Source of the DNA: Escallonia rubra | Taxonomy: Eukaryota > Streptophyta > Magnoliopsida > Escalloniales > Escalloniaceae | DNA: 64,000 bases | Direction: 5' to 3' | Assembly (NCBI GenBank): GCA_033065855.1 | Contig: JAVXUO010002091.1 | Coordinates: 33,198 to 97,197, forward strand | In this document: positions 19,316 to 21,462 of the stretch, in pieces | Position numbering within the stretch: position 1 is the first letter of the stretch | Layout of the letters: each line of letters begins with the position of its first letter | Notes under the pieces: generated by a model | The model's database searches: none | The model's input: the letters and a program-made list of their open reading frames with translations, nothing else | Told to the model about the DNA's origin: nothing | Position numbers and translations under genes: made by a program

Positions 19316-19318
<3 letters not shown>

Positions 19319-19429
19319 AGCTGATCCGTTGAGAGCGTGGGCAAAATAGGAGAAGTTGCAAACGTGATCTGGCCGTCCATACTGAAAGATGGACGGCCCA
19401 GATCGCGCTTTTTTCGAATACTGTCAGTC

Positions 19430-21349
19430 GTCCGCCATACTGTTTAGCGGACGGCATTTTTTACCTTTTTGCCCCTCCTCCGTACCGAAAGCTAAACTAT
19501 ATCGCGGACGGACTTTTTTTTAGTTTTTTTTAAGCCCGTCCGCTACATAATGTAGCGGACAAATTTTTTGACAAACGTCCGCTACATTATGTAGCGGACA
19601 AGTTTTCAGTAGCGGACGGAAGGGATCTTTTTTTTACGTTTTTTTTGCCCGTCCGCTATATTATGTAGCGGACGATTTTTTGACAAAAATACCCTTCGAG
19701 CCCATCCGCTACATAATGTAGCGGACTGAATTTTTTGACATTTTTTTCTCTCTCTCTCATTAATGCTCTGACATTTTTTTCTCTCTCCTTTCATCCGCTA
19801 CATTATGTAGCGGATGAATATTAATTTTTTGAAAAGACCCCATGTCAGATCTGGAAAAGAGGTCTCTTTTCATTTAACTCTTTTTATTTTCTCTCTCTTC
19901 CTCATCTCTCGTCATCTCCATCTTCTCCCTCTCCCTCGTACCCATTCTTTGAAGATGGCAGATCTGCTGTCATGGCGGAGAGAGGCACCGGAGGAGAGGA
20001 AGCTTCGACGAAGATGGCTTCGTCTTTTCCAGATCTGACATGGGTGACTCAGCTGAGCTGACTCGCGACCCCGTTCTCCAACTCGGACAAGCTCCAGGTG
20101 TGGAAGCTCAGCTACCGCCTCTGACATGGATCGACGCTGCTGCTGTCCACTCCTCCTCCTCGGACAGTGGCCACCGTGCTCGGCCACTGCTCCTCCCTGG
20201 AGAAGCTCTCCGTCAAGCGCCTCCGAGGGAGCAACGACGGCGGCGGCGCTGCGGAGCTGATCAGTCCCGGCGCGTCAGTCCCGGCACTTTCTCTTCCCCA
20301 TGCCATCACCATCGCATCTCATTGCCGATGCCACCACCATCGCAATCACATCTGCCCATCTCCCATGTTGCCGCCATCTCCACCAGATCTGCCAGTTTCC
20401 CATATCATCGCTGTCAAATCTAGTGGTAGCCCATGCTACCGCCACCACATCTTTTGCCGCCGCACCACCATCTCCGACCACCTTATCTACCCTTCATCCA
20501 GCCCTAGGAGTTGAGAATACATTTTTTTTTTCATTTTTCTTTTCTTCAGATCTATCTCAATGTTCCAATTTGTATCACTATTCAGTTTTGAATGAGATTT
20601 GTTTAGTTAATTTTGGTGTAATTGACATGTAATTGGGTTTGGTGATGGATGAGAGTGGAGTTTGACTTGGATTGTTTGATTTTGTTTTGAATCGCTTAAC
20701 CGGTTAAGTTTGACATGTAATTGGTTAATTTTATTTGACTTAGATTGGATGAGACTGGAGTTTTAAATTAGATTGTTTGATTTTAAGAGTAATTAAAGAG
20801 AGGGATAGAAAAAGAGGAATAGAAAAAGAGGGATAGATCTGGGAGTTGTGAGGGGAGAGAGAAAGAAAATATCTCTGTGTAAGAGCAAAAAGAAACGAGA
20901 GAGAGAAGGAGAGAGAAACAACTTAGAAAATTGGAGAGAAAGGAAAGAGAAAGAGAAAGAGAGTCAGAAATGTGACAGAAAAATGATGACAAAATGAGAG
21001 AGAAAGAGAAAAGAAGGTAACAATATCTCGTACTTTTTCCATCCGCTACATAATGTAGCGGATGGAAAATAGAGAGAGAGAAATGGAAAAAAGGCACTGC
21101 CTACTCGTCCGCTACATAATGTAGCGGACGAGAGCTGAAGGGTATATTTTCAAAAAATAGTCCGCTACATAATGTAGCGGACGTACTTTAAAAAAACGTA
21201 AAAAAAAGAGACGTCCGCTACACTGTATAGCGGATGCCTTTTTTGCTGTCGCGTGTCAGAACTTGAATGCTGTCCGGGAAACAGTGTAGCGGACGGGGCA
21301 GAGGGGCAAAATGGTAAAAAAACCCGTCCGCCATACTGTATGGCGGACG
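19430..21349. repeat. Family of about twelve short palindromes
   Basis: The unit is TCCGCTACAT, one central base, then its complement ATGTAGCGGA, often flanked by G/C. Copies are at 19538-19560, 19577-19599, 19651-19673, 19705-19725, 19791-19817, 21039-21065, 21104-21132 and 21160-21182. Relatives with a few changes are at 19430-19452, 21214-21234, 21272-21294 and 21325-21349. They sit in both arms of the element, separated by short T- or A-rich spacers. The 21104 copy has perfect 14-bp arms and the 21325 copy perfect 12-bp arms. Transcripts would fold into serial hairpins. Confidence 0.9.
20055..20290 (+). pseudogene. Captured fragment of SKIP2/VFB-like F-box LRR gene
   Basis: In the frame read from 20167 the translation contains VLGHCSSLEKLSVKRLRG, then GGGAAELISPG and ALSL. 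This closely follows the leucine-rich repeat segment of plant SKIP2/VFB F-box proteins, where a similar HCS-LE-LSVKRLRG stretch precedes AAEPIGPG. The upstream bases (20060-20113) may belong to the same LRR region in a shifted frame. The fragment is GC-rich, unlike the AT-rich surroundings, has no start, F-box or full LRR array, and is cut off after about 40 recognisable residues. It cannot make a working F-box protein. Family assignment is from memory and moderately sure. Confidence 0.5.
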
Positions 21350-21460
21350 ACTGACAGCTTTCGAAAAATGCGCGATCTGGCCCGTCCATCTTTCGGGATG
21401 GACGGTCAGATCGCGCTTGCAACTTCTCCTATTTTGCCCACGCTCTCAACGGATCAGCTC

Positions 21461-21462
<2 letters not shown>

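Follow-up and report, generated by a model that had tools for sequence, protein, structure and literature searches.

What might explain why a short stretch of plant DNA repeats one palindrome a dozen times, and in both of its ends? The stretch, labelled W, occupies positions 19316-21462 of the window, the 64,000 nucleotides of Escallonia rubra contig JAVXUO010002091.1 that were analysed; it is 2,147 bp long and is seated in a (TA)n tract. An earlier note on this DNA had described inverted ends of about 190 bp, twelve near-identical palindromes and a GC-rich core bracketed by AT tracts, and had offered two ideas for the palindromes, a transcript that folds into a chain of small hairpins or sites that bind transposase dimers. 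Most of that outline is borne out. The inverted ends are a left TIR of 194 bp (19316..19509, plus strand) that starts GGGAGCTGATCC and a right TIR of 191 bp (21272..21462, minus strand) that finishes GGATCAGCTCCC; they pair at 86% over 194 columns, and shorter inverted matches extend inward, to ~19816 and ~21040. The bracketing tracts are pure, uninterrupted TA, 41 bp on the left (19275..19315) and 65 bp on the right (21463..21527), and the GC content of the core reaches 0.55-0.64 at ~19916-20515. Each TIR contains a long, imperfect stem-loop, H, at 19364..19406 on the plus strand and, as its counterpart, at 21372..21414 on the minus strand; 97% of its cells are paired in the distinct aligned TIRs.

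The earlier note had also found no transposase in W, and the three interior open reading frames tested against Pfam indeed gave no match, to a transposase or to anything else. A 41-aa piece of W had no match in PDB by phmmer, Rfam at its gathering threshold gave 0 matches in the window, and searches of plasmids, viral contigs and prokaryote contigs gave none, as expected for plant DNA. The core of W also holds a 22-bp exact inverted repeat (19839-19860 and 20023-20044), which is at least partly kept in 7 of the first 20 other elements described below. Elsewhere in the window there is a pectate lyase-like open frame (PF00544) at 30081-30914 on the minus strand, and, at 53319-55271 on the plus strand, a clamp-loader-like gene whose 650-aa frame matches DNA polymerase III delta/AAA (PF13177).

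The palindromes were defined by a half-site rule, GTCCGC-N11-GCGGAC with at most one mismatch per half, which finds twelve 23-bp dyad sites in W, six per arm; in seven of these the palindrome is perfect along all 23 bp. In the left arm they lie at 19430..19452 (L1), 19538..19560, 19577..19599, 19651..19673, 19704..19726 and 19793..19815, and in the right arm at 21041..21063, within a 35-bp perfect palindrome, at 21107..21129, 21160..21182 and 21213..21235, at 21272..21294, where the left half is degenerate, and at 21326..21348 (R1). L1 and R1 are each centred 126 bp from their end of the element. A further, degenerate site occupies the second position of the left arm (19487..19509, centre 19498), and the equivalent site of L016, a sister copy, satisfies the half-site rule. 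The pattern TCCGCTACATNATGTAGCGGA occurs 7 times exactly and 9 times within 3 mismatches, always inside W, and 0 times in 100 shuffles. The count of twelve stands, but "near-identical" describes only about nine of the sites, since the outer ones differ mid-site.

Did W insert as a unit, and does it have relatives? A 225-bp TIR query was run against the genome to which the window belongs (566 Mb, 3,222 contigs) and gave 42 matches; because scoring was confined to the best 40 of 2,532 candidates, the TIR copy number is probably larger than 42 and the sample is biased towards close relatives of W. Loci were fetched around the TIR matches, 20 and then 12 more, and a partner TIR in inverted orientation was present in all 32, with one end shorter or more diverged (73-77% identity) in L027, L031, L033 and L035. 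The second copies that the earlier note had suggested seeking thus exist, and beyond W 43 further elements of 1.2-2.2 kb could be delimited at both ends. The resulting 44 elements are W, the 32 loci, two neighbours within those loci and nine found by a core search, from which L041-L044, L046 and L056 were left out as repeats of known elements, L048, L050 and L051 as undelimited, and L047 and L057 as having no family TIR at both ends. The nearest full-length sister of W is L016, with a core identity of ~98%. The flanks of W, 500 bp per side, have no match in any other locus of the comparison (L009-L060), so that W is a separate insertion. These results support the view that W is a transposon that inserted as a unit and is non-autonomous. 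Extra family TIRs lie near the delimited element in L018, L025, L030, L034-L037 and L040; where inspected, a TA tract or a few bases intervene, an arrangement comparable to the modular arrays described in PMC5907723.

To which superfamily does the family belong? Alternating TA of at least 4 bases flanks 39 of the 44 elements on both sides, and in such a tract the same base before and after the element signifies a target duplication of odd length; for W itself, the TA tract permits this parity reading only. The duplication is odd in 35 of the 39 TA-flanked elements (28/31 and 7/8; the exceptions are L024, L029, L033 and L060), and a split of 35 against 4 has a one-sided binomial probability of ~2e-7 if the copies are independent. 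The five elements left out of this test, L026, L030, L034, L039 and L054, do not have TA on both sides, and there the 9-bp flanks can be compared directly: they agree at 9/9 positions in L054 (CATATATAT), at 8/9 in L026, L034 and L039, and at 6/9 in L030. Because the lengths are odd, duplications of 2, 4, 8 and 10 bp are excluded. Tc1/mariner, hAT and TTAA-type elements, with duplications of 2, 8 and 4 bp, respectively, were considered and rejected, as even lengths fit only 4 of the 39 elements. Mutator-like elements (MULEs) are described as having long TIRs and a target duplication that is usually 9 bp, within a range of 8-11 bp (PMC3310237, PMC6446971), and the 194- and 191-bp TIRs of W fall within the 100-500 bp given for MULE TIRs. 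TIR length and the odd or 9-bp duplications, both of which are observed, point to a family of MULEs.

The cores of these elements differ. When the first 35 were clustered on shared interior matches of at least 200 bp, 13 fell into the group of W and the rest into ten other groups. In W, a captured gene fragment of 101 bp (20174..20274, plus strand) matches at 96% a 604-aa open frame in L072 that has F-box and LRR matches in Pfam. The fragment is absent from the earlier note, and its F-box/LRR origin was recognised through the genome search only. The same piece is matched in 16 other delimited elements, partly in different surroundings, as well as in two more long frames, one of them on the contig of L072 and the other elsewhere. 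The L072 gene or a close paralogue is the donor. A second core piece (20277..20837, plus strand) is ~95% identical to L047, the locus without a family TIR pair, which could be another donor or, alternatively, a copy that has decayed. L047 also carries a 578-bp insertion (~1634-2211) whose ends begin AGGGGCGGA and GCAGGGGCGGA, perhaps another small transposon. Because W contains 101 bp at 96% identity from a host F-box/LRR gene, it is a Pack-MULE in the sense in which PMC3310237 describes them and, judged from its sequence, one of the TA-microsatellite-targeting kind.

What, then, are the palindromes for? The half-site rule finds 398 sites in the 44 elements, counts that related copies inflate, and their number varies between 4 and 13 per element, a variation that the earlier note had proposed examining. 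The first 35 elements contain 306 sites, compared with 0-4 in Markov controls of the same 35, and in the first 21 elements 199 pairs of half-sites are spaced at 11 bp and 34 at 15 bp, the next commonest spacing. The conserved form is GTCCGC-nAnAn-W-nTnTn-GCGGAC, with the base code W at its centre. Its middle letters lie outside the selection rule and are nearly fixed: A at -4 in 398/398 sites, A at -2 in 398/398, T at +2 in 396/398 and T at +4 in 397/398, while positions ±1, ±3 and ±5 vary and are often unpaired. The same four letters are invariant in the first site when 42 TIRs are aligned without the site rule. Taken as wholes, the first two sites are no better kept than the spacers of young TIRs (0.89 and 0.92, versus 0.92-0.95), and the case for constraint on the sites therefore rests on the comparison of site with site. 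Perfect palindromes make up 168 of the 398 sites and 6 of the 103 distinct 23-mers. Near-perfect palindromes of 53-55 bp with a dyad site embedded occur in L017 (1542-1596 and 1691-1743, element coordinates) and L019 (313-365).

A site of this form could act either as DNA bound by a protein or as RNA, and an RNA role, in which transcripts would be a chain of small hairpins feeding small-RNA pathways, does find support in the pairing. Across 199 sites, in which related copies again inflate the counts, pairing at ±1, ±5 and ±11 exceeds all of 1,000 shuffles and pairing at ±3 nearly all, an excess of mid-site pairing beyond the needs of pure protein recognition; the arms of the sites of W itself agree somewhat beyond shuffles (p ~0.01). 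The left arm folds far beyond shuffles, with z of -13.1 as RNA and -14.1 as DNA, and in the TIR alignment covariation is 0.038 versus 0.030 in shuffles, a value reached by 0/500, and 88.2% of cells are paired versus 87.7%, reached by 11/500. However, pairs changed on both sides number 6 versus 5.2 in shuffles, a figure that 174/500 reach, and the bases at positions 3 and 5 are often unpaired, whereas the letters at 2 and 4 retain their identity. In the minimum-energy fold, moreover, just the first and the last of the six left-arm sites fold on themselves as hairpins; the other four are joined to neighbouring sites in two pairs, and the left arm is thus no simple chain of small hairpins; a transcript that crosses both TIRs would in any case be double-stranded. 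With four of six left-arm sites paired to a neighbour and only 168 of 398 sites perfect, the serial hairpins of the earlier note are weakly supported at best, and we regard an RNA role for the palindromes as improbable. Because the kept letters on both sides of the axis alternate with free letters, a site for a protein dimer is favoured over hairpin RNA. Of the two earlier ideas, dimer binding appears to be the better, the letters being conserved more than the pairing, and a dyad-symmetric protein site fits the 398 sites better than hairpin RNA does.

The array might instead have arisen neutrally, through tandem duplication and slippage acting on a palindromic unit, as the variable number of sites (4-13), a 5-bp loss inside one site of L016 and a higher-order repeat in a transposase-bearing copy, described below, would allow. 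Such a process is hard to reconcile with conserved letters that alternate with free positions across 398 sites, or with a symmetry that stops at 11 bases from the centre, no excess being found beyond ±11 in 199 sites of 21 elements. Nor does it sit well with the placement of the sites: of 70 arms, 57 have the first site centred exactly 126 bp from the end and 65 have it at 125-128 bp, and in three transposase-bearing loci it lies at 123-126 bp. Intervals between neighbouring sites are 50-60 bp in 163 of 236 cases. No amplified element without sites occurs among the 44, all of which were found via a TIR or a core that holds or adjoins sites. We consider a neutral origin of the array very unlikely, and a site for a dimeric protein remains the preferred reading.

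Which protein might read these sites? A genome search with the MULE transposase family gave a list of the best 150 of 3,309 candidates, from which six loci were picked, non-randomly, and opened. In three of the six (L073, L075 and L077, located, taken together, on genome contigs C1112, C17 and C2846) a PF10551 transposase stands beside a family TIR, one TIR end per locus; the TIR identities are 84%, 83% and 76%, and the loci contain 8, 16 and 23 sites, respectively. The other three opened loci contain no sites. Counted from the end, the first three TIR sites of L073, L075 and L077 lie at 123-126, 178-181 and 236-239 bp, and the four middle letters are kept in 8/8, 14/16 and 21/23 sites; in L075 and in L077, one of the off-letter sites falls within the transposase frame, where its presence is probably due to chance. 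In L077, FAR1 DNA-binding, MULE and SWIM domains are all found in one open frame of 765 aa, the FAR1 part was not found in the 659-aa transposase frame of L075, and the frame of L073 is interrupted. The transposase is under constraint, with a dN/dS of 0.19 between L077 and L075 (659 codons) and 0.26 between L077 and L073 (342 codons, the longest open piece of the interrupted frame). A left end was sought in all three loci and found in none; 1.2 kb further out, L077 has two more sites and no TIR start, and its right flank is not a TA tract. The autonomous partner for which the earlier note had proposed a search is likely to exist: the TIR and sites shared by three of the six opened loci make autonomous relatives of W in the same genome likely. 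Among the matches listed there are also many MULE transposases whose open frames are 777-783 aa long, and because L076, which has a 777-aa frame, lacks dyad sites, the abundant MULEs probably belong to more than one lineage.

The transposase is not the only DNA-binding protein of these loci. Downstream of it, on the same strand, is an apparent two-exon gene, its splicing deduced from the frames, with a B3 domain in exon 2 in L073 and L077; in L075 the exon has stops. At least 150 copies of the B3 exon are present (best 150 of 1,394 candidates), at 98-100% amino-acid identity, and of those listed 103 are identical in protein and 149 are without stops. Because these copies are near-identical, at least one branch of the lineage seems to have multiplied recently. 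For at least 13 transposase matches, of which L077 is the one opened, a B3 exon follows on the same strand at a distance of no more than 3 kb (compared by eye, best 150 of each). In L077, one group of sites lies in the TIR that precedes the transposase, another separates the two genes, and a third follows the B3 gene, where it forms a higher-order tandem repeat of ~287 bp with four dyad sites per unit (46-1027 of the locus).

It is therefore conceivable, with a clearly lower probability than a transposase site, that it is the B3 protein of the element itself that targets the palindromes, as a sequence-specific regulator or an anti-silencing factor like VANC, and that the transposase reads other letters of the TIR. 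The site arrays that surround both genes of L077, the 149 of 150 listed exon copies free of stops and the recurrence of the B3 exon behind at least 13 listed transposase matches would all suit such a role. So would the fast divergence of exon 2, which has a dN/dS of 1.09 (L077-L073, one pair, 89 codons), and the precedent that VANC targets, as described in PMC5735166, are tandem repeats that expand and co-evolve. Against it, the high identity of the copies perhaps reflects only a recent burst and a dN/dS near 1 perhaps relaxed constraint, the exon of L075 has stops, and the VANC motifs described are in one orientation, whereas the sites here are palindromic. As a tentative proposal, this could be a two-gene MULE lineage whose B3 protein reads its own 23-bp arrays and activates or un-silences all carriers, including passengers with gene fragments such as W. 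If true, VANC-like, sequence-specific self-activation would have been invented a second time, independently, with a B3 gene and a site array amplified in concert to at least 150 near-identical copies.

The reading that we prefer, and consider reasonably probable, is that W is a non-autonomous, TA-targeting Pack-MULE moved in trans by FAR1-MULE-SWIM relatives, and that its palindromes are docking sites for a dimer, most likely of the transposase. Relatives that encode the FAR1-MULE-SWIM transposase would supply the protein, and short copies such as W would be mobilised in trans. The dyad sites at ~126, 180 and 230-239 bp from each end would be docking points for a dimeric product of the autonomous element, most likely the transposase, with several dimers loaded per end and the B3-domain protein as second candidate, and the transposase-bound short copies would then be inserted into TA tracts with a 9-bp stagger. 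The family, its copies, the duplication length, gene capture, site conservation and the TIR and sites of three transposase loci are directly supported here, and because the distances are the same in transposase-bearing and short elements, a role of the sites in recognition is supported; the identity of the binder is uncertain, as the relatives encode two DNA-binding proteins. For recognition, PMC3310237 cites the example of maize MURA, which binds one motif of ~32 bp. The family offers 103 distinct 23-mers of one symmetric site, in fixed places and with two candidate binders, so that the question of a transposase site versus a self-regulation site becomes directly testable. Plant MULEs move gene fragments around genomes, and the B3 gene is a candidate for the means by which a plant transposon controls its own silencing.

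How does this family compare with known systems? It is reminiscent of the SaTar elements of guayule and rice, which are described as non-autonomous MULEs in (TA)n microsatellites (PMC5907723); both are non-autonomous, (TA)n-seated, TIR-defined and arranged in arrays. Rice has rSaTar1-5, including Micron, and rSaTar4 is given as ~1,500 bp with 176 copies, 153 of them microsatellite-flanked (PMC5907723). The TIR of the W family may be that of rSaTar4. Unlike SaTar as described in PMC5907723, whose main text does not contain the string "palindrom", the family here has a palindromic site array and a B3 gene. The MuTAnT and AutoMuTAnT elements of Medicago, in the account of PMC4486113, are likewise MULEs in (TA)n with a 9-bp duplication, modular foldback TIRs and small non-autonomous copies, for which the partner encodes a Jittery-like transposase. 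As the modules of MuTAnT TIRs form a foldback, the remark in the earlier note that inverted modules are unusual in plant TIRs was overstated. Unlike the W family, 90% of MuTAnT copies are 200-300 bp, with four TIR modules and no 23-bp site array, and AutoMuTAnT is presented with one open reading frame and no B3 gene, against two genes here (PMC4486113).

Pack-MULEs and tandem-TIR MULEs share with this family captured gene fragments and repeated units in the ends (PMC3310237); tandem-TIR MULEs as portrayed there repeat whole TIRs, which the authors link to better transposase recognition, whereas the repeat unit here is a 23-bp palindrome. With VANDAL and VANC of Arabidopsis, as characterised in PMC5735166 and PMC10398659, the family has in common a second encoded protein and non-coding arrays of short motifs, which in VANDAL change fast. 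VANDAL elements are described with degenerate TIRs and motifs in one orientation, whereas the W family has long conserved TIRs and palindromes, and the second protein is VANC in the former and contains a B3 domain in the latter (PMC5735166, PMC10398659). Membership of VANDAL, which is defined by degenerate or no TIRs, was considered and rejected, the TIRs here being long and conserved. Neither a 23-bp palindromic site array nor a B3 gene in a MULE is described in the main-text literature searched: no paper was found under the words B3 domain together with MULE, transposon and Mutator, "B3 domain" did not appear among the matches listed for related term combinations, and no plant-transposon title was among the matches listed for papers containing six 10-mers. 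TA-targeting MULEs, Pack-MULEs and modular TIRs are already known; what this family adds to them is the array of dyad sites and the B3 gene.
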